A stretch of 64,000 nt of DNA from Acidimicrobiia bacterium (GCA_020832495.1 JAFIEP010000129.1:62001-126000), one strand, 5' to 3'. Shown: positions 1,973 through 10,643, numbered from the stretch's first letter. Numbers and translations are program-made. Notes: a model not told the origin generated them from the sequence alone.

Positions 1973-2020
1973 GCTCCGGGGGTGGGGCTCGAACCCACGA
2001 CATTCTGATTAACAGTCAGA
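1973..2020. repeat. attL core (displaced 3' end of tRNA-Asn)
   Basis: These 48 bases are identical to 10570-10617 and cover the acceptor 3' strand, T arm, variable loop and anticodon arm of tRNA-Asn on the minus strand. The sequence then diverges, so the 5' half of a tRNA is missing and this copy is not a functional gene. Confidence 0.93.
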
Positions 2021-2089
2021 ACAGACGTGATAATGGCTACCAAAGAGTGTCTACGTTGTCCCTGGTCACAGTAGGTGAAGTGGTCATGC

Positions 2090-2118
2090 CTGTCAACAGT
2101 TGCTAACTGTCGTACACT
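2090..2118 (+). promoter_or_regulatory. Candidate integrase promoter with operator in the spacer
   Basis: A TACACT -10 box lies at 2113-2118 with a CTGTCA -35-like element at 2090-2095, 17 bases apart. The spacer is filled by a perfect dyad, ACAGTT-GCT-AACTGT, at 2096-2110. A repressor bound there would block polymerase. Inference from sequence only; the regulator is unknown, though the HTH/Xis or WhiB-like protein of the element are candidates. Confidence 0.5.
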
Positions 2119-2121
2119 CTG

Positions 2122-2146
2122 CGTTGGTTACCTGGTTGGTTACCTC
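2122..2146 (+). repeat. Left arm-type integrase sites (tandem)
   Basis: Two tandem copies of GTTGGTTACCT lie 101 bases inside the attL core. The same 25-bp block occurs at 10488-10512, just inside attR. Paired arm sites of this kind bind the small N-terminal domain of lambda-type integrases. Confidence 0.7.
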
Positions 2147-2166
2147 GGACCCCGTAGGAGCGTCGG

Positions 2167-3312
2167 ATGGCCAAGCGCAGCAACTCGACAGGGAGCATCT
2201 ACTACAACGCCTCCCGTGACCGGTGGGACGCCAAGGTCACCCTCGGCCGCAATCCTGACGGCACACTCAAGCGGCGTACCTTCACCGCCAAGACCCAACG
2301 TGAAGTCGCCAAGCGGCTGCGTGAAGCACTCGACGCCCACGACAACGGCCTCGACATCGGTGGGCGGGATCTCACCGTGGAGACCTTCGGCCGCTGGTGG
2401 GCCACCGAACTCCTACCCGGTGAAGGTCTCGCCCCCAGGACCGAGACGTGGTACCGCCAGACGCTCGAGGCGTACGTGCTCCCGCACGTCGGGAACCGCC
2501 GGTTGACCGGCCCCGGTCAGATCACCCCCGGCGATGTCGAAGCGATGACCGCCAAGTTGGCGAAGCAGGGTTACAGCCACAGGGTGCAGGTGGTGGCCCG
2601 CACCGTGCTCGGCAAGGTGCTCCGAGCCGCTGAAGTGCGAGGGTTCACCACCCGCAACGCTGCCCGCCTGGCCAAGTCACCACGGGACCGTGGAGACGCC
2701 CGAGACGTGAAGGCGCTCACCAAGAAGGAACTCGGCAAGCTCCTGACCGCCCTCGAGGGCACCCGCTGGTACGCACCGACGGCGGTGGCGGCCACCACCG
2801 GTCTACGACCTGGGGAAGTGCTGGCCCTCCACTGGCCCGACGTCGACCTGGGCGACGATCCGCACGTGTCGGTGCGTCATGCGTTGCAGTGGATCTCCCC
2901 AGGGCCGGAGCCGCACTTGAAGGCCCCCAAGCGGAACCGCTCCTACCGGACCGTCCCGCTGCCTGACTCGACGGTCGGCGTGCTCAAGGCGTGGCGGACC
3001 GAGCAGAAGGACCAGCGGGTCAACGCCGGCGAACTGTGGCGCCCTGTGTGGGATGACCTGGTGTTCACCGCTCCGAACGGGGCGCCGCTCAAGTTGATGA
3101 GCTGGCGTCAGGCCATGTCCCGAGCGATGAAGGGAACGCACCCGCACCGGTTGCGGCACACGTACGCAACGCACTTGATCTCCTCTGGCGTGCCGATAGC
3201 CCACGTGGCCGAACTGCTCGGTGATTCGGTGGCGGTGGTGGACTCCACCTACAGCCACGTGGTGAGGATCAAGTCCGAGACCCGACAGGTGGCTGACGGT
3301 CTGCTCGGCTAG
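2167..3312 (+). CDS. int: Tyrosine integrase
   Basis: A 381-residue phage-type site-specific recombinase that would integrate the element at the tRNA-Asn att site. An N-terminal arm-binding domain (GSIYYNASRDRWDAKV, residues about 9-60) precedes a SAM-like core-binding domain (about 65-175) and the catalytic domain. The latter shows Arg in TTGLRPGEVLALHW (about 212), the HRLRH box (327-331) and the nucleophile Tyr362 in STYSHV. The usual GH before the Tyr is GDS here. The ATG has a TAGGAG ribosome site. It is the first gene inside attL, the usual integrase position, and its own arm-site array overlaps its leader, which suggests autoregulation. Confidence 0.95.
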   Translation: MAKRSNSTGSIYYNASRDRWDAKVTLGRNPDGTLKRRTFTAKTQREVAKRLREALDAHDNGLDIGGRDLTVETFGRWWATELLPGEGLAPRTETWYRQTLEAYVLPHVGNRRLTGPGQITPGDVEAMTAKLAKQGYSHRVQVVARTVLGKVLRAAEVRGFTTRNAARLAKSPRDRGDARDVKALTKKELGKLLTALEGTRWYAPTAVAATTGLRPGEVLALHWPDVDLGDDPHVSVRHALQWISPGPEPHLKAPKRNRSYRTVPLPDSTVGVLKAWRTEQKDQRVNAGELWRPVWDDLVFTAPNGAPLKLMSWRQAMSRAMKGTHPHRLRHTYATHLISSGVPIAHVAELLGDSVAVVDSTYSHVVRIKSETRQVADGLLG

Positions 3313-3319
3313 GTCACCA

Positions 3320-3682
3320 CTACCGGGATGGCGCTCCCGGCAAGGCTCGGCCATCAGCCGGAACTCGGCAGTTGGCCGCTGCCAGTTTCTCGGTGGTGAG
3401 CGTCAGTGTGCCGCTGGTGGCCGCAGTCAGTAGCCGGTTCAGTGTGGCGTCTCGCCCTCGGATGGTTTGGCCACAGGCCGTGCAGGTGACCTCAAAGCTT
3501 CTCCCACCGTGGGGTGAGAGCCAGCTACTTTCCCGTGCGAACCACGTCCCGTCCCACAAGTCGCGACCGCCGAAGCCGCAAGGCCACAGGATGCCGAGCC
3601 GCTTACCGCACTCGCAACGCACCGTCCGGTCGTCATCGGCATGGAACCAGGGGCGATCTCTAACCCGCTTGCGTCGTGACAC
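3320..3682 (-). CDS. Small zinc-finger protein of unknown function
   Basis: About 120 residues, transcribed against the integrase. A CECGK pair near residue 24 and CTACG near residue 68 form two knuckles of a probable zinc ribbon; the tail is Ala/Pro-rich. I do not recognise a family. The GTG at 3682 is preferred over the ATG further upstream because a perfect TATAAT lies seven bases before it, which implies a leaderless message. The gene diverges from the excisionase operon, the position in which many satellites place a regulator, so a DNA- or RNA-binding control role is possible but unproven. Confidence 0.6.
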   Translation of the reverse strand: MSRRKRVRDRPWFHADDDRTVRCECGKRLGILWPCGFGGRDLWDGTWFARESSWLSPHGGRSFEVTCTACGQTIRGRDATLNRLLTAATSGTLTLTTEKLAAANCRVPADGRALPGAPSR

Positions 3683-3689
3683 GCGTGTA

Positions 3690-3695
3690 ATTATA
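3690..3695 (-). promoter_or_regulatory. Perfect TATAAT -10 box, leftward
   Basis: The minus strand reads TATAAT here, seven bases before the GTG at 3682. On the plus strand a TTGACA lies at 3704-3709, facing the excisionase, but no good -10 box follows at normal spacing. The interval 3683-3807 is the divergent control region of the element. Confidence 0.5.
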
Positions 3696-3807
3696 GTCGG
3701 TGGTTGACATCCATACACCGGTCCGCTTCGGCGTAGACCCGTAAGTCAGGGCAGCAACGACAGGGTGCCCGCCGCCTAACCCCCATCGGGTTCGGGCTGG
3801 AGCACCC

Positions 3808-3996
3808 ATGTCCACCGTTGACCGGTTGGCGTACAGCCCAGCAGAGGCCGCACAGGCCCTCGGCTGCACCCGCCAGCACATCTACAACATGCTCACTCGA
3901 GGTGAGCTGCACAGCATCAAGCTCGGCAAGCGTCGGTTCATCCCACGTGCCGGCCTCGAGGCCCTGCTCGCTGAGGACCAGGGGGTTGCATCGTGA
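3808..3996 (+). CDS. Excisionase-type HTH protein
   Basis: A 62-residue winged-helix protein of the MerR/AlpA/Xis type. The pattern YSPAEAAQALGCTRQHIYNMLTRGEL followed by IKLGKRRFIPRAGLEALL is the classic excisionase fold: a helix-turn-helix and a two-strand wing. In such elements it directs integrase towards excision and often regulates transcription. The ATG at 3808 gives a full-length domain. Its TGA overlaps the GTG of the next gene (3993), so excision and replication functions appear co-translated. Confidence 0.85.
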   Translation: MSTVDRLAYSPAEAAQALGCTRQHIYNMLTRGELHSIKLGKRRFIPRAGLEALLAEDQGVAS

Positions 3997-4976
3997 CGAC
4001 CCCGAACATGCCGCCGCCCCCGGTCGGAGCCGAGGGCGGGGCGGACGATCACCAGGGCAGCGGTGTCACCGACAACGATACCACCGGGGGTACCTCGGTG
4101 GGAGCCCTCCACGGCGCCGCCCGCCAGTACGCGAAAAACCAACGGCCCGTGTTCCCGTTGCAACCTGGCATGAAGGTGCCGCTGCCGGGCAGCGGGGGGT
4201 TCAAGGACGCCACGACCGATCTCACACAGATCGACGCCTGGTGGTGGACGAACCCGTCGTACAACATCGGCGTGGCCACCGGCCCGGCGGGGTTGGTCGT
4301 GGTGGACCTCGACGTGAAGTGGCTCCCCGACGGCAGGCCCAACCCCGACCACAACGGTTACACGGCGTGGTATCGGCTGCTCACCGACCTCGGTTTCGAT
4401 GATGAGCCGCACACCTTCACCGTGGACTCACCGACCGGTGGGCGGCACCTGTACTTCCTGGCCCTCCCTGGGCGCCCGGTGGCGACATCGACCGGTGGCA
4501 CGCCCAAGAGCTTCCCTGTCGGTATCGACGTGCGGGCCGAGGGCGGCTACATCGTGGCGGCGCCGTCGGTGCGTCCCGATGGCGGCTACATCGTGGACCG
4601 CCACACCGAGGCCATCCCGTTCCCCGACGCCCTGGCCGACTACCTCGAGGCCAAGGCGAACCAACCGGTCCGACGGCGCCGTCCGACGGCGGTGCAACCG
4701 CTCCGACGACCCCGGCGAGGGTACGGTGCCGCAGCCCTGGCCGATGAGGTGCAGCGGGTCGCAACCGCCCCGGTCGGCACCCGCAACGACGCGCTCAACC
4801 GGGCAGCGTTCAACCTGGGCCAACTGGTCGCAGGTGGCGTGCTCGAGGCCACCGACACCGCCAACGCCCTGTTGGACGCCGCCACCGCATGCGGGCTCGG
4901 TGAGGACGAGGCAAGCCGCACCGTCCTGAGTGCGTTCACGGCGTCGGCCGACCAGCCACGGCAGGTGCCAGCATGA
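3993..4976 (+). CDS. Bifunctional DNA primase/polymerase (prim-pol)
   Basis: A 327-residue archaeo-eukaryotic-type primase-polymerase. After a Pro/Gly-rich N-terminal stretch come the three catalytic motifs: VVVDLDVKW (Asp-x-Asp, about residue 105), SPTGGRHLYF (Ser/Gly-Gly-x-His, about 147) and GIDVRAEGGYIVAAPS (about 170). Members start and extend DNA chains during replication of plasmids, phages and satellites. A helical C-terminal region (from about 245) resembles the PriCT-like domains found after such cores. The GTG start overlaps the stop of the excisionase gene, and the stop overlaps the ATG of the ATPase gene, a compact replication module. Confidence 0.9.
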   Translation: MTTPNMPPPPVGAEGGADDHQGSGVTDNDTTGGTSVGALHGAARQYAKNQRPVFPLQPGMKVPLPGSGGFKDATTDLTQIDAWWWTNPSYNIGVATGPAGLVVVDLDVKWLPDGRPNPDHNGYTAWYRLLTDLGFDDEPHTFTVDSPTGGRHLYFLALPGRPVATSTGGTPKSFPVGIDVRAEGGYIVAAPSVRPDGGYIVDRHTEAIPFPDALADYLEAKANQPVRRRRPTAVQPLRRPRRGYGAAALADEVQRVATAPVGTRNDALNRAAFNLGQLVAGGVLEATDTANALLDAATACGLGEDEASRTVLSAFTASADQPRQVPA

Positions 4977-6688
4977 GCGCCCGAGACGATTTGCTCAAGG
5001 GTGTGGAGGAGCTTCACGCCGACACTGAACCCGCCGAGGGCGACGAGGACAAGAAGCCGAACCAGGCCACCATCCTGGTGGAGTTGGCCGAGTCGTACTA
5101 CCGCCTCGGTGCCGACCTCACCGGCGAACCACACGCCGTGGAACATGACGGCCCCAACCTGGCCCGCCAGTTGCGTGGCCGTGGTGGTCTGCGTGCGGAG
5201 TTGGCCGACGCCTTCTTCAACCGGCACGGCAAGGCGCCATCGGCTACCGCTCTCGCCGACGCCCTCACCGTCCTCGAGGGTCGAGCGGTGCGGGCCGAAC
5301 GTGAACCCGTCGCCCTGCGGGTCGCTGAGTATGGCGATGCTGTCGTGATCGACCTGGGCGACCCCGACGGTCGCTGCATCATCGTGGAACCAGGGTCGTG
5401 GCGGATCGCTGACCGGTCCCCGGTCCTGTTCCGTCGGTCTGCGTTGACTGGTCGGCTACCAGATCCCGCAGCAACCGGGGATCTTGACCGTCTGCGGCGT
5501 CACGTCAACGTGAGCGATGACCTGTGGCCCGTCCTGGTCGGGTGGCTGGTGGCCGCTCTCATCAGCGGTATCCCTCACCCGATTCTCGCCCTCCTCGGTG
5601 AGCAGGGGACCGCCAAGACCACGACAGCGGTCCGCCTGGTCGGGCTGATCGACAACAGTCCCGCCCCGGTGCGGACCGCCCCACGGGATCCCGAACAGTG
5701 GGTTGTGTCCGCTGCCGGGTCGTACGTCGTCGGGGTCGACAACATCTCGTCGGTGCAGGCGTGGTTGTCGGACGCCTGGTGTCGAGTCGTGACCGGTGAC
5801 GGACTGGTCCGACGGACCCTCTACAGCGACGGGGACTTGACCGTGACGGCGTTGCGTAGGTGCCTCATCATCACGGCAATCGACGCCGGAGCCCTGCGAG
5901 GAGACCTCGCTGAGCGCCTCGTCCCCCTCGAGTTGGAACGCATCCCGAAGGGTTCCCGCCAGCTCGACGCCGAGCTAACCGCCCGGTGGCAGGACGATCA
6001 CCCGATCATCCTCGCTGGTCTGTTGGATCTCGTTGCCAAGGTGCTGGCCGTCCTGCCGTCCACGGTGGTCGACGACCTGCCCAGGATGGCGGACTTCGCT
6101 CTCGTCCTGGCCGCAATCGACCGGATCAACGAATCGTCCTCCCTCGACACCTACCGCCGGCTAACTGAGCGGACCGCCGCCGAAGTGGTCGATTCCGACC
6201 CTGTGGCCGCAGCTGTTGCCGACCTGGTGGCGGACCAACCGTGGAGCGGCACGGCAGGGGCTCTCCTCGACGCCCTCAACGCACGCCGCACCGATGAGCG
6301 GGCCCCGAGGGGATGGCCCGGATCGCCTCGAGCAATGGGCGGTGCCCTCCGGCGGTGCGCCCCTGGTCTGCGTGCCGCTGGCATCGACGTGGACGACGAA
6401 CGGGACTCCACCAAGCAACGGCGGCGCCTGTTCACCATCGGACAGAGGGGGGATGGAAACGACCGTCCGAACAGTCCGAACAGTCCGAATCCCGCCCCTG
6501 ACCTGGGGAAACACCTTCGGACGGTCGGTCGGACGGTCGCGACACCAACCGTCCAACAGTCCGACGAACAGTCCGACACGAAAACGCCCGCTGACCTGGG
6601 CTTTTCCACCCCGTCGGACGGTTCGGACGGTTCGGACGAACGAAACCGACCCCCCTCTGACGCCACCGACCTCGAGGAGCACCCGTGA
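4973..6688 (+). CDS. P-loop ATPase, probable replicative helicase/loader
   Basis: 571 residues. A Walker A motif GEQGTAKTTT (about 208-217) is followed by strand-Asp patterns YVVGVDNISS (about 250) and a sensor-like LIITAIDAG (about 297). This arrangement is seen in ATPases next to prim-pol in actinobacterial phages and integrative elements. It would unwind or remodel DNA for element replication. The last 100 residues are low-complexity, with repeated NSPNSPN, SDGSDGS and QSDEQSD, probably a disordered linker. It starts by an ATGA overlap with the prim-pol gene. The helicase activity is inferred from position and P-loop; no clear SF3 arginine finger is recognised. Confidence 0.75.
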   Translation: MSARDDLLKGVEELHADTEPAEGDEDKKPNQATILVELAESYYRLGADLTGEPHAVEHDGPNLARQLRGRGGLRAELADAFFNRHGKAPSATALADALTVLEGRAVRAEREPVALRVAEYGDAVVIDLGDPDGRCIIVEPGSWRIADRSPVLFRRSALTGRLPDPAATGDLDRLRRHVNVSDDLWPVLVGWLVAALISGIPHPILALLGEQGTAKTTTAVRLVGLIDNSPAPVRTAPRDPEQWVVSAAGSYVVGVDNISSVQAWLSDAWCRVVTGDGLVRRTLYSDGDLTVTALRRCLIITAIDAGALRGDLAERLVPLELERIPKGSRQLDAELTARWQDDHPIILAGLLDLVAKVLAVLPSTVVDDLPRMADFALVLAAIDRINESSSLDTYRRLTERTAAEVVDSDPVAAAVADLVADQPWSGTAGALLDALNARRTDERAPRGWPGSPRAMGGALRRCAPGLRAAGIDVDDERDSTKQRRRLFTIGQRGDGNDRPNSPNSPNPAPDLGKHLRTVGRTVATPTVQQSDEQSDTKTPADLGFSTPSDGSDGSDERNRPPSDATDLEEHP

Positions 6689-7149
6689 GCAACAGCCGCA
6701 GATTCCGCAGGAAGGTGGCCGAGCAGGCCCAGGCCGACCAGGTGGCCACCGCCGCCCGCATCCTGTCCACGAACCTCGAGCAGATGGCCGCCGAGACGGG
6801 ATGCAACCGGGAGGAGAACTCCCACCGCCTCGCCGCATCCCGACTCCATGGCCGTCTACTCGGTGGCCCGGCGGCAGAGGGGCGACTCAAGGCGTGCCCA
6901 CACATGGCGGCGCCGCAACCCGGCGCCGTCCTCGCCCCGTTCCCCGGTGTTGTGTGGTGCGCCAGTTGCGCCGCCGAGATCCTGGCCCGTGACGAGTTCC
7001 ACGAACTGTGGACCACATCGGGCTGTGACCTCTGCGCCGACCAGGTGGGCCGCTACCACCCAGTCGTCATCCAGGACGGCCCCGTGGCCATCCACGCCAC
7101 CGTGTGCCCGTCCTGCTTCCACGACACCCCCAACCCGAACCACAACTAG
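6685..7149 (+). CDS. Cys-rich hypothetical protein of the element
   Basis: 154 residues, starting at a GTG that overlaps the ATPase stop. The first 60 residues are helical and basic. The second half has paired cysteines (WCASC, CDLC, VCPSC) spaced like a double zinc ribbon. I do not recognise the family. It sits between the replication module and the capsid module; a role in DNA binding or in diverting a helper phage is possible, but nothing in the sequence decides it. Confidence 0.7.
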   Translation: MSNSRRFRRKVAEQAQADQVATAARILSTNLEQMAAETGCNREENSHRLAASRLHGRLLGGPAAEGRLKACPHMAAPQPGAVLAPFPGVVWCASCAAEILARDEFHELWTTSGCDLCADQVGRYHPVVIQDGPVAIHATVCPSCFHDTPNPNHN

Positions 7150-7157
7150 GAGACCCC

Positions 7158-7697
7158 ATGTCAGACGAACAGACCGAACCGACCGAACAGCCCACAGAGG
7201 CCGACGAGACCCAGGAGACCGAACACGACGAGACCCAGGAGATCCCCGGCGCGGGCGACAGCACAGAGGGAGAAGGCGAGGATCAGGAAGGCGAGGAGGG
7301 GGACCACGACCCGGCTGCAGCCGTCCGAGCCGAAGCCAAGCGGTACCGCCTCAAGTTGCGCGAGGTGGAGGGCGAGCGGGACGCCCTGCGGTCCCAGCTC
7401 GAGGCAGTCCACCGCCAAGAGGTGGTGCGCCACGCAGAAGGTGCCGGGATGCTGGCCGACGGCACAGACCTCCTCCTCGATGGCCGCTACTCCATCGGGG
7501 ATCTCCTCGACGCCGACGGAGCGGTCGACGGCGCCAAGGTGACCAAGGCCGTGGCCGACATCGTGGAACGGCGTCCGCACTGGCAGGCCCCCAGGGAACC
7601 GACGAACCCGACCGGTCGACCCGTCACCCGACTGCACGGCGGGACCGTGGACGACCCCGGCGCCCGGTCCTGGGGCGACGTGATCCGTAGACGCTGA
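7158..7697 (+). CDS. Capsid scaffold-like protein
   Basis: 179 residues. The first 50 are extremely acidic and disordered (repeated TE, ETQE, GEGEDQEGEE). A predicted coiled coil follows (about 55-90, AEAKRYRLKLREVEGERDALRSQ-like heptads), then a short C-terminal globular part with WGDVIRR. This is the usual build of phage scaffolding proteins, which shape the procapsid and are encoded directly before the major capsid gene, as here. The ATG has a good AGGAG site. The function is inferred from composition and order. Confidence 0.72.
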   Translation: MSDEQTEPTEQPTEADETQETEHDETQEIPGAGDSTEGEGEDQEGEEGDHDPAAAVRAEAKRYRLKLREVEGERDALRSQLEAVHRQEVVRHAEGAGMLADGTDLLLDGRYSIGDLLDADGAVDGAKVTKAVADIVERRPHWQAPREPTNPTGRPVTRLHGGTVDDPGARSWGDVIRRR

Positions 7698-7840
7698 AGT
7701 ACCCCGTGGGGTATGATGCTGGTGTCCTGTGAAACCGCCCGGTGCGACCACGGGACACCAGCTCCCCCCGGAGGGGACACAACAGGCAGGCCCGGAGCCG
7801 CCTAACCATCCCGTACCCCTCCGAACGAGGAGCTTTCCCC
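7698..7840 (+). promoter_or_regulatory. Structured leader before the capsid gene
   Basis: This 143-base gap holds a near-perfect dyad TACCCC-GT-GGGGTA at 7700-7713 and a longer stem (GGTGTCC at 7721 pairing with GGACACC near 7753-7759). A CG-rich stretch and a GAGGAG ribosome site before the ATG at 7841 follow. It may hold a promoter operator or an attenuator that lets capsid expression exceed that of the scaffold. No classical -10/-35 pair stands out. Confidence 0.4.
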
Positions 7841-8674
7841 ATGACTTTCGTCTCGAACGACGGCGCCAGCCTGCTGCGCCCCGAAGATGTCGGCACCCTG
7901 CTGGTGCAACCGGTGCAGCGTGCATCGGTGGCCATGTCGGTGTCCGAAGTGATCTTCACCGACTCGGCCGAGTTCCGAGTCCCTGTCGTCACCGACGACG
8001 CCACCGCCGGGTGGACCCCCGAGGGCGAGGAGATCACGCCCAGCAAGCCCGAGACCGACGAGGAGCTTGTGAAGCCGGCGAAGGTCGCTGGTCTGACCAT
8101 CGTGTCCCGCGAGTTGGCCGAGGACTCGAGCCCTGCCGCTGCCTCGGTGATCGGTGAATCCCTGGCCCGTGACATCGCCCGCAAGATCGACGCCGCCTTC
8201 TTCGGCAACGAGAGCCCACCCGCCCCGAGCGGCCTCGAGTCGCTGGCCGACGTGGACGACGTTGACGGAGACCTCGACTCCCTCGACGTGTTCGCCGAGG
8301 CCATCGCCGCCGCCGAGAACGTCGGTGCAACCCTCGGTGCGTTCGTCGCCAACCCCGCAGACGCCCTCGCCCTCGCCGTGCTCAAGGACCAGGACGAGAG
8401 CGTCAGGCCGTTGCTGTCGGCCGATCCGACCGAACCGACCCGCCGGGCCCCGTACGGCGTCCCCCTCTGGGTGTCGCCTGCCGTGACCGCCGGGACCATC
8501 TGGGGCATCCCGTCGGGACGCACCATGGTCGTGGTCCGCACCGACACCCGCATCGACGTGTCGGAGGACGCCTACTTCAGCTCCGACCGCCTCGCCGTCC
8601 GAGCCACCATGCGGGTCGGGTTCGCCTTCCCCCACGAAGAGGCCATCGTCGCCATCAACGTCGGCGGCAGTTGA
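7841..8674 (+). CDS. HK97-fold phage major capsid protein
   Basis: 277 residues. The N-terminal arm (SLLRPEDVGTLLVQPVQRASVAM), the PVVTDDATAGWTPEGEEI segment, the long helix region SRELAEDSSPAAASVIGESLARDIARKIDAAFF and the C-terminal GVPLWVSPAV...DVSEDAYFSSDRLAVRATMRVGF strands are the standard landmarks of the HK97-type shell protein. It lacks the extra N-terminal delta domain because a separate scaffold is encoded upstream. It would self-assemble into the icosahedral head. It is notable that no portal or terminase genes surround it, so packaging would depend on another phage. Confidence 0.9.
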   Translation: MTFVSNDGASLLRPEDVGTLLVQPVQRASVAMSVSEVIFTDSAEFRVPVVTDDATAGWTPEGEEITPSKPETDEELVKPAKVAGLTIVSRELAEDSSPAAASVIGESLARDIARKIDAAFFGNESPPAPSGLESLADVDDVDGDLDSLDVFAEAIAAAENVGATLGAFVANPADALALAVLKDQDESVRPLLSADPTEPTRRAPYGVPLWVSPAVTAGTIWGIPSGRTMVVVRTDTRIDVSEDAYFSSDRLAVRATMRVGFAFPHEEAIVAINVGGS

Positions 8675-8734
8675 TTTCCCGAGCCACGGGAAAACGGTGG
8701 CCCCCCTCTCCGTGGCAAGAGGGGGGTCACCACC
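8675..8734 (+). terminator. Two successive hairpins after the capsid gene
   Basis: TTTCCCG-agcca-CGGGAAA at 8675-8693 starts directly after the stop. A second stem at 8696-8734 (GGTGG and CCCCCCTCT with AGAGGGGGG and CCACC) follows. Together they make a strong transcription terminator or an RNA-protecting structure at the end of the structural module. Up to 8837 the DNA is a C-rich tract with repeated CCACCCCC and no gene. Confidence 0.7.
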
Positions 8735-8837
8735 TCACCCCCACCCCCGGCAGGTGGACCCCACCCCCATGTGGCAGGCCCCACCCCACCCCCAGGTGGG
8801 AGCCACGGCAAGCCGACGGCAACGAGGACACAACAAC

Positions 8838-9209
8838 GTGACCAACACGACCACGAACACGATGCAGTCGGTGGCCATGGCCACCCTGACCGCCCTCGCC
8901 GCCAGCATCATCCTCGGCGCACTGCTGCGCAGGTGGAACCGAACAGAGCACACCGCAACCGCTCAACACACCAGCAACACAGCCGGCAAACGACCGAGCG
9001 AAACGCCAGCAACGGCAACGGATCGCGCCAACGGCAACCGACCGAGCACCAGCCACCGCACCCCCAGGGGGGATGACCCCCGCCCCGCCCCGCTGACAAC
9101 CTGGTCGGTCATAGCGTCAAATCTCTCCCCACCAGTTTCGGGGGGCGAACCTGCGCCCACCTGGCAGCCCTCCACGGCGTCGGTTTCGGGGGGTGTGACC
9201 GGTGAGTGA
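8838..9209 (+). CDS. Small membrane protein with disordered tail
   Basis: About 123 residues from the GTG at 8838. A single transmembrane helix (SVAMATLTALAASIILGALL, about 10-29) is followed by RRWNR and a long polar Thr/Asn/Pro/Ser-rich tail. It overlaps the WhiB-like gene by eight bases, so it is probably translated with it. A holin-like, surface or anchoring role is conceivable; the sequence has no other recognisable motif. Confidence 0.5.
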   Translation: MTNTTTNTMQSVAMATLTALAASIILGALLRRWNRTEHTATAQHTSNTAGKRPSETPATATDRANGNRPSTSHRTPRGDDPRPAPLTTWSVIASNLSPPVSGGEPAPTWQPSTASVSGGVTGE

Positions 9210-9588
9210 ACGGCGTGGTGCGTCGGCGGAGCGGGAGGCCCGAGCGGCTGCCGGGCTCGCCGCCCAGCTCGATGAGCGAGGGCAGGCGGAGGCCGCTGCA
9301 CTCCACCGTGCTCGAGCAGCCCAGGCGGAGCGGGACGCGTTCACGACGTTGATGGTCGGTGCCGACCTGCCGGATCTCATCCCGCCTCGCCCTCGGTGGC
9401 ACGCCGACGCTGCATGTCGTGGCAGGGGCGACTGGTTCGACCTGGCCGCACCCGACGCCAAAGCAATCTGTGGTGAGTGCCCGGTGAAGCAGGCGTGCGC
9501 TGACGACGGGATCGAGGAACCGGCTGGTGTGTGGGGCGGCATGTCCGAGCGGGACCGTCGGAAGTTGCGACGAGGCCGGGTCGCCTGA
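9202..9588 (+). CDS. WhiB-family iron-sulfur regulator
   Basis: 128 residues. The four cluster cysteines are Cys72, Cys90, Cys93 and Cys99 (pattern C...C-x2-C-x5-C), followed by the G[VI]WGG turn (109-113) and the basic SERDRRKLRR tail. Wbl proteins are actinobacterial [4Fe-4S] proteins that bind the principal sigma factor region 4 and steer promoter choice; phage copies can cause superinfection exclusion. The N-terminal 60 residues are an extra Ala/Arg/Glu-rich helix. The gene is last in the rightward operon of the element and is closed by a hairpin at 9602. Confidence 0.92.
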   Translation: MSERRGASAEREARAAAGLAAQLDERGQAEAAALHRARAAQAERDAFTTLMVGADLPDLIPPRPRWHADAACRGRGDWFDLAAPDAKAICGECPVKQACADDGIEEPAGVWGGMSERDRRKLRRGRVA

Positions 9589-9601
9589 CCGCAGACGCGA
9601 A

Positions 9602-9629
9602 ACGACCCCCAGCCTGAGCCGGGGGTCGT
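9602..9629. terminator. Bidirectional hairpin between convergent genes
   Basis: ACGACCCCC at 9602-9610 pairs with GGGGGTCGT at 9621-9629 around a ten-base loop. It lies between the WhiB-like gene and the leftward gene ending at 9652 and could stop transcription from both sides. Confidence 0.7.
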
Positions 9630-9651
9630 GACGCTGGTGCTGTCGGTGTGG

Positions 9652-9933
9652 TCAGCGGGTGACGGTGAACCCCCGAGACTCGACCTCGGCCACCAGGTGC
9701 TCATCGGCCACGTCCGACAGGTCCGGTCCGCCATCGGGAGTGAGTCCCGCCTTGAGCTGGTCGATCAAGTCCGACGCATCGGACCGCGTGATGTCGTAGC
9801 GGACATCGGGAGCGTTCCCGCGCTTGTCGGTCAACCCCGCCGCCATCGCCGCGTCCGATGCCGAGTCGAATCCGGCCCGCCGCGACAGCGTGGCGATGAG
9901 CTCTACCTGCTTGCTGGTCGGCTGAGTGCTCAT
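9652..9933 (-). CDS. Hypothetical element protein, 93 residues
   Basis: The start is MSTQPTSKQVELIATL at the ATG 9933, which overlaps the stop of the preceding gene (TCAT on the plus strand at 9930-9933). The short protein has a helical N-terminus (TSKQVELIATLSRRAGF), a middle part rich in Asp and a second helix (DASDLIDQLKAGL). It resembles the small TSKQ/TDKQ-type helical proteins seen in actinophages, but I cannot assign a function. It is co-transcribed with the 175-residue gene upstream. Confidence 0.6.
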   Translation of the reverse strand: MSTQPTSKQVELIATLSRRAGFDSASDAAMAAGLTDKRGNAPDVRYDITRSDASDLIDQLKAGLTPDGGPDLSDVADEHLVAEVESRGFTVTR

Positions 9934-10457
9934 GCTGTCCCCAGGATCTCGTTGCAGATGCGCCGCAGCTCCTCGAGGCACACCACCACGTCCTCGTGGT
10001 CACTGGTCCGCTCGTGGAACCGCACCGACCGACCGCCCTCGAAGAACCGGCCCGTCACCTGGCACCGCCAGGCGCCCTCGCGCCGCTCCACGATGGCCTG
10101 CCACGGCTGCGCCTCGTACAGCCGATAGTCCTCCTGCTCGCGCTTGCGCTTCGCGACGGCATCCTCGGGGAGATGGGCCAACACGGCGTTGAGCACGGTG
10201 GGATCGACCACCATGGCCAGCTCGATCTCGGCACGGCGCACCAGCACGTCGAGGTTGGTGCGCATCGAAGGGTCGAGCATGTCGGGGTTCTCGAAGGCGT
10301 AGAGCATGGTTCGTGCCCGCTCCACGGCCGCTTCGTAGTCGCCGTGGGCCGGGAGGATCGAGTCGAGCAGGTACTCGACGAAATCGTCCTTGTCGAAGCA
10401 CACCAGCCACTCGGCAAGCAGCTCCCGGGCGGTGTCGGTCGGTTCGGTGGTTTCCAT
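9930..10457 (-). CDS. Hypothetical element protein, 175 residues
   Basis: An intact acidic, mostly helical protein starting at the ATG 10457 with GGAGAG upstream. The C-terminal half contains WQAIVERREGAWRCQVTG and GRFFEGG, a small beta-rich segment. No family recognised. It is the first gene inside attR and is transcribed away from it. In many satellites this edge carries accessory genes that interfere with helper or competing phages, so it is a candidate for such a role by position only. Confidence 0.6.
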   Translation of the reverse strand: METTEPTDTARELLAEWLVCFDKDDFVEYLLDSILPAHGDYEAAVERARTMLYAFENPDMLDPSMRTNLDVLVRRAEIELAMVVDPTVLNAVLAHLPEDAVAKRKREQEDYRLYEAQPWQAIVERREGAWRCQVTGRFFEGGRSVRFHERTSDHEDVVVCLEELRRICNEILGTA

Positions 10458-10487
10458 GGTTGGTCTCTCCTGTGGTTGGGAGACACC

Positions 10488-10512
10488 CGTTGGTTACCTG
10501 GTTGGTTACCTC
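10488..10512 (+). repeat. Right arm-type integrase sites (tandem)
   Basis: Identical over 25 bases to 2122-2146: two GTTGGTTACCT units, 57 bases inside the attR core. Both copies lie inside the element and in the same orientation, as expected of integrase arm sites carried by the excised circle. Confidence 0.7.
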
Positions 10513-10569
10513 ACCGACGTTTCGCTGTCGGTGAGGCTACCCGCACCCTGCCTGACCTGGTGTTTTGTA

Positions 10570-10617
10570 GCTCCGGGGGTGGGGCTCGAACCCACGACAT
10601 TCTGATTAACAGTCAGA
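10570..10617. repeat. attR core within tRNA-Asn
   Basis: The 48-bp match with attL ends after the 5' strand of the anticodon stem. Bases 10618-10643 (D arm and acceptor 5' strand) are host DNA. The element therefore supplied a new 3' part and kept the tRNA intact. Confidence 0.93.
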
Positions 10618-10643
10618 CGCTCTGCCGGCTGAGCTACCCCGGA
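10571..10643 (-). tRNA. tRNA-Asn (GTT)
   Basis: 73 bases fold into a full cloverleaf on the minus strand: acceptor TCCGGGG/CCCCGGA, D arm GCTC...GAGC, anticodon stem TCTGA/TCAGA with loop CTGTTAA (anticodon GTT), T stem GTGGG/CCCAC with TTCGAGC, and discriminator G. CCA is not encoded. It is the integration target of the element to its left. Confidence 0.96.

Follow-up and report, generated by a model that had tools for sequence, protein, structure and literature searches.

A scaffold- and capsid-bearing integrated element in an Acidimicrobiia bacterium as a probable minimal phage satellite

Positions 1973-10617 of a 64,000-nucleotide stretch of DNA (the window) from the actinobacterium Acidimicrobiia bacterium (GCA_020832495.1 JAFIEP010000129.1:62001-126000) hold an intact integrated element of 8.6 kb. 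The element is probably a phage satellite that builds a small procapsid of its own and borrows the portal, terminase and tail from a helper phage. It carries genes for integration, excision and replication together with a scaffold gene and a major capsid protein (MCP) gene, and it has no other recognisable gene for packaging or virion assembly. Comparisons of gene content show that it is no lone oddity: it stands at the minimal end of a graded family that spans Actinomycetota.

The element is bounded by a 48-bp direct repeat with identical copies and sharp ends (1973-2020 and 10570-10617), the right copy of which is the 3' part of a tRNA-Asn gene (10570-10643, minus strand). A 24-mer, GTTGGTTACCTGGTTGGTTACCTC, occurs at 2123 and 10489, each time just inside one att copy, and its two copies are putative integrase arm-type sites. 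Start-stop overlaps couple the genes at 3993, 4973 and 6685, plausible ribosome sites precede most element genes, and the GC content at third codon positions (GC3) is 0.73-0.90, compared with 0.87-0.89 in host genes. These features together indicate that the coding sequence is intact. A sequence-only reading had proposed insertion in tRNA-Asn with intact, coupled frames, and the repeat, its overlap with the tRNA and the gene calls, most of which are coupled, bear this out. An Rfam search returned tRNAs only. Synteny was used to look for an empty attB site: relatives keep tRNA-Asn and SigA in order but have a different left neighbour, and no empty site of the same host lineage was seen. Two related genomes (L118 and L120) carry other integrases beside the same SigA - tRNA-Asn - tRNA-Met locus, which is an integration hotspot. 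The features of the element are as follows.

1973-2020, unstranded: attL, duplicating 48 bp of the tRNA-Asn 3' part, perfect direct repeat
2123-2146, plus strand: putative left integrase arm-type repeat, identical 24-mer occurring at 2123 and 10489 only
2167-3312, plus strand: tyrosine integrase (PF00589, 9e-19; phrog_1, 6e-53)
3320-3718, minus strand: possible small Cys-rich protein between the integrase and excisionase genes, weak (open frame only; GC3 0.67; no accepted family)
3808-3996, plus strand: excisionase or AlpA-type helix-turn-helix (HTH) regulator (PF12728 (HTH_17), 2e-12; TIGR01764, 1e-10; phrog_66)
3993-4976, plus strand: archaeo-eukaryotic primase (AEP)-type primase-polymerase (prim-pol; PF09250, 5e-33)
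4973-6688, plus strand: AAA-type replication helicase (31% to gp37, helicase/primase, of Microbacterium phage Zeta1847; 52% to the helicase of the sister element L128)
6685-7149, plus strand: Zn-ribbon protein with a faint TniQ likeness (PADLOC TniQ, 8e-5; Pfam TniQ, 0.011, below cut-off)
7158-7697, plus strand: scaffolding protein (phrog_4708, 2e-4; 19-33% to scaffolds adjoining the MCP in relatives)
7698-7840, unstranded: structured scaffold-MCP gap with hairpins (folding z -3.4; similar in portal-less relatives)
7841-8674, plus strand: MCP of 277 aa, HK97 fold (PF05065 (Phage_capsid), 2e-29; TIGR01554, 1e-25)
8838-9209, plus strand: possible small protein with one transmembrane segment, weak (gene-caller score 5.9; no family)
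9202-9588, plus strand: WhiB-like regulator (PF02467, 2e-12; 38% to the L128 WhiB)
9652-9933, minus strand: hypothetical protein of 93 aa, no family
9930-10457, minus strand: hypothetical protein of 175 aa, no family
10489-10512, plus strand: putative right integrase arm-type repeat, second copy of the 24-mer
10570-10617, unstranded: attR, inside tRNA-Asn 10570-10643 (minus strand)

The integrase, excisionase, prim-pol, scaffold and capsid genes named by the sequence-only reading are confirmed by profile matches, and its "ATPase" is refined to a replication helicase. The frame at 8838 is only weakly supported as a gene. Searches of phages and of 298 genomes of the order found nothing matching the 175-aa protein.

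Scans of the element proteins against Pfam, PHROGs and NCBIfam gave no portal, TerL, TerS, protease, connector, tail or lysis match. The same libraries recovered TerL, portal, protease and, weakly, a connector in the related locus L050, TerS, Ad1 and Hc1 in L017, TerL in L011, Ad1 in L008 and the tape measure in L010; TerS was likewise found, as phrog_1496, in L012, L128, L132 and L133. The frames of at least 300 aa in the element are those of the integrase, prim-pol, helicase and MCP, and all others of this length are antisense shadow frames, so that a portal and TerL are excluded by size. The claim that the 8.6 kb hold no terminase, portal, connector, tail or lysis gene is therefore upheld by hidden Markov model scans with positive controls and by frame sizes. 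The unassigned proteins (93-175 aa), one of which might have proved to be a portal or terminase, are too short and match no packaging family, and the helicase at 4973 was rejected as a TerL candidate because it matches a phage replication helicase. The element shows no sign of being a defective prophage: its frames are unbroken, both att sites are present, and no leftover tail, lysis or portal gene was found.

The AlphaFold2 (AF2) model of the MCP (predicted local distance difference test score, pLDDT, 88.4) has the HK97 fold and no delta domain. Its best VIA match, with a Z score of 20.7, is the capsid of EcCI2 (9gyi), a capsid-forming phage-inducible chromosomal island (cf-PICI), followed by encapsulin at 20.0 and HK97 at about 19; in the predicted model these three are nearly tied, within 1-2 Z. 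The sequence matches TIGR01554 at 1e-25 and encap_f3 at an E-value of 0.065, far below the encap_f3 cut-off. Because the profile matches are to phage capsids and not to encapsulins, the sequence decides for a phage capsid. The scaffold model (AF2, pLDDT 80) shows a disordered acidic N-terminus, a 45-residue helix and a helical C-terminus, an arrangement that is usual for scaffolds.

The DNA around the MCP gene is structured. The scaffold-MCP gap folds with a z of -3.4 in the window and of -1.0 to -7.3 in portal-less elements, with long hairpins that are in some cases followed by T-runs, whereas in elements with TerL and portal the z is -1.4 to +1.0 without such strong folding. The hairpins match no Rfam family and could be an attenuator, a stabiliser or a packaging signal. 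Directly 3' of the MCP gene, 8675-8837 is C-rich, hairpin-rich non-coding DNA with a 14-bp stem at about 8695-8731, and strong hairpins follow the MCP gene in several relatives too. This segment is a candidate site for packaging or termination.

Searches with the MCP yielded 12 Mycolicibacterium phage records of 11 kb, a Tsukamurella plasmid island, 14 actinobacterial chromosomal loci and IMG/VR contigs, for which gene maps and clustering were made with a simple custom gene caller. Single-sequence queries of IMG/VR with the MCP, prim-pol and helicase found no relatives, and alignment queries were needed to find them; in a sample of 396 genomes of the phylum, no additional MCP passed 1e-20. Scaffold and MCP lie next to each other in about 30 loci of many genera, the remaining genes of which differ. 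The pair stands without any further packaging gene in the window, L007, L009 and L006, and two Blastococcus elements are among these scaffold- and MCP-only loci. One packaging or tail gene is added in others: TerS (L012, L132, L133), Ad1 (L008), TerL (L011) or the tape measure (L010); no scaffold was recognised in L133. A set of TerS, adaptor and closure protein is found in L003-L005, L016-L018, L020, L051, L054, L056 and L057, and the series TerL-portal-protease-scaffold-MCP-connector in L043-L046, L048-L050, L052, L053 and L055 and, more distantly, in L136 and L138, where it was assigned by gene size and order. Two loci have unusual arrangements. In L011 (Cryobacterium), TerL at 7992-9418 lies in two overlapping frames (an ATPase part and a probable nuclease part) before the scaffold and MCP genes, and there is no portal. 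In L133 (IMG/VR, 13.5 kb), a Rep-like protein (phrog_11698), an HTH protein and an MCP are encoded twice in tandem, in units that are unequal; TerS follows the second unit, no integrase was seen, and the locus is perhaps a plasmid-like capsid satellite.

In the MCP tree, the window MCP falls among ten minimal-group MCPs (85/85, not firm), the other nine of which come from elements without a recognised portal, and the TerS-adaptor and TerL-portal types are split from this group (98/98). The scaffold- and MCP-only loci do not form one clade: the state requires four changes, and 0% of the bootstraps give one; the starred branches force only one change, which leaves a single origin compatible with those branches. 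A PHROG scan of 102 proteins from eight minimal-group members gave head and TerS families and no portal among the 25 commonest of 112 families, and for these eight members the lack of a portal is argued from protein size. All 12 Mycolicibacterium records carry a related MCP; in the three examined, the large genes besides MCP are those for an integrase, an HTH protein and a tape measure, with no portal or TerL.

A sister element, L128 in another genome of the same order, shares the backbone of the window element (integrase 32%, excisionase 45%, helicase 52%, WhiB 38%), has TerS (phrog_1496, 4e-9) and has no capsid gene; its contig ends about 0.6 kb after the WhiB gene, and part of the element may be missing. 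A constant backbone with a swapped packaging strategy would be expected of satellites. The WhiB-like regulator (9202-9588), also present in L128 and probably in L015, possibly controls the host or the helper.

On the satellite interpretation, which the att and arm-type repeats around an intact integrase, excisionase, prim-pol, helicase, scaffold and MCP set favour, the integrase and excisionase would insert the element at tRNA-Asn and release it, and the prim-pol and helicase would copy it. Upon induction by an infecting helper, the scaffold and the 277-aa MCP would assemble a small procapsid around the helper portal, the helper terminase would recognise a site mimicked on the satellite DNA and fill the procapsid, and helper connectors and tail would finish the particle. 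The scaffold-MCP pairing kept across many genera, the att-bounded relatives of similar size, the sister L128 with TerS in place of a capsid, the Mycolicibacterium records without portal or TerL and the cf-PICI capsid as best structural match point the same way.

Several points weigh against this interpretation. Particles, excision and the helper are inferred from the gene content; no cos or pac site was identified on the element; and, taken as a whole, it has no known close relative. In addition, its own genome (97% complete), in which the sequence-only reading had proposed to look for a prophage with a matching portal, gave no portal (two families), TerL or tail match to PF04860, PF05133, PF03354 and PF10145. 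No resident helper prophage was thus found, and an external helper is likely. In the Mycolicibacterium relatives, shared sequence motifs suggest a type of helper. L003 and L004 carry a cos-like site, GACCGGTCGGTTA-TGCG, identical to the sequence formed where the ends of phage Blinn1 (L172, L173) join, the same site lies directly before TerS in L018, and similar C/G-rich inverted repeats flank the cos core in all three and at the Blinn1 ends. Blinn1 is a cluster-A-type phage, and the tape measure of L003 shares 43-56% identity with its counterparts in such phages; the helper of these relatives may thus be a cluster-A-type mycobacteriophage.

Published satellites fall into two kinds: those that use one or two proteins to remodel the helper shell, and cf-PICIs, which bring the whole set of capsid and packaging genes (PMC12409344; PMC10690885). 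According to the summary in PMC10690885, the cf-PICI set comprises MCP, protease, portal, connectors, TerS, TerL and HNH. The window element shares with cf-PICIs an MCP of its own, as the top structural match to EcCI2 illustrates, but adds only the scaffold and lacks the portal, protease and connectors (Pfam, PHROGs and NCBIfam) as well as TerS, TerL and HNH, whereas the relatives with the TerL-portal series carry TerL, portal, protease and a connector. It has the hallmarks of PICIs in the broad sense: an integrase with att sites at a host gene, an AlpA- or excisionase-type regulator with a replication module of its own, and a capsid gene without a full virion set. It lies outside the cf-PICI definition and fits the loosely defined PICI kind, to which it adds a minimal form from a different order of actinobacteria. 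Mycobacterial elements with an integrase and an MCP, some with scaffold or terminase, were earlier put forward as candidate PICIs, with no functional proof, and phiRv1 and phiRv2 have been called PICI-like (PMC10654092). By description these candidates resemble the window element in being small, in some cases tRNA-integrated, and in having a tyrosine integrase, a replication helicase, an MCP and in some cases a scaffold; they differ in that they reside in mycobacteria and some have a terminase, whereas the window element sits in a different lineage of actinobacteria and has neither terminase nor connector genes. The Mycolicibacterium 11-kb records (Alyssa1, Suzzy, WillG and others) share with it the MCP (33-35%), the scaffold (37% over 79 aa) and the lack of portal and TerL, but have a serine integrase and add TerS, adaptor, closure protein and tape measure. 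The Streptomyces satellites MulchRoom and MiniFlayer have their own capsid and scaffold, TerS, TerL and portal and no primase, with a lysogeny module in MulchRoom only (PMC10690885). They are actinobacterial and bring capsid and scaffold like the window element, which lacks TerS, TerL and portal and has a prim-pol. The earlier idea of a reduced form that borrows a portal and terminase is supported as regards the minimal gene set, with two corrections: the element stands at one end of a graded series, and related mycobacterial candidates had already been published. The borrowing itself we infer.

The MCP might instead co-assemble with the helper capsid protein, making the shell smaller, and be unable to build one by itself. 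This is unlikely, although SaPIbov5 provides a precedent in Ccm, an HK97-fold capsid homologue that has a delta domain and no scaffold partner, takes the pentamer places of the helper protein within helper shells and forms no shells alone (PMC8569155), and although the missing portal and terminase would fit such dependence. Both elements have a single HK97-fold capsid protein, but the window element adds a scaffold gene, and its 277-aa MCP has no delta domain. Moreover, the separate scaffold is kept beside the MCP in about 30 loci, and in relatives the same pair belongs to complete capsid sets that include portal, protease and TerL.

That the element is a decayed remnant of a full-size prophage is very improbable. 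Capsid genes are common in prophage remnants, and the head module is only partial; however, the att repeats are clean, and the arm sites, intact frames and own replication module are present, while L128 has TerS in place of the capsid on the same backbone. The search for related elements, which could have revealed such an ancestor, found att repeats delimiting L007, L008, L010, L011 and L015 at 8.2-10.2 kb and L132 at about 9.1 kb; since these att-bounded relatives in other genera are also of 8-10 kb, they argue for a lineage of small elements. A domesticated encapsulin-like compartment or an anti-phage interference protein is just as improbable, for although encapsulins are near the top structural match and interference with helpers is known for capsid proteins of satellites (PMC8569155), the sequence matches phage capsid profiles and no encapsulin family, a scaffold gene would not be expected and no cargo protein was recognised.

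The proposal that the element, as a probable satellite, follows a strategy between capsid remodellers and full capsid-formers, in which a complete foreign shell with its scaffold has to accept a helper portal, and packaging genes (TerS, adaptor, TerL, tape measure, portal) come and go beside an unchanging scaffold-capsid core throughout Actinomycetota, stands about an even chance. No description of a scaffold- and MCP-only class or of such a graded series was found in the open-licence papers searched, which is a weak negative. Actinomycetota are hosts with poorly known satellites, and the graded group is little described. Its members, from scaffold and shell only to nearly the cf-PICI set, offer a natural experiment on the rise or shrinkage of capsid-forming satellites. 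The heads of tailed phages are believed to form on a portal of their own. A satellite with shell and scaffold but without a portal, if true, would show that one portal can be shared by different shells; portal-scaffold compatibility would then set the helper range, which bears on both head nucleation and helper choice.
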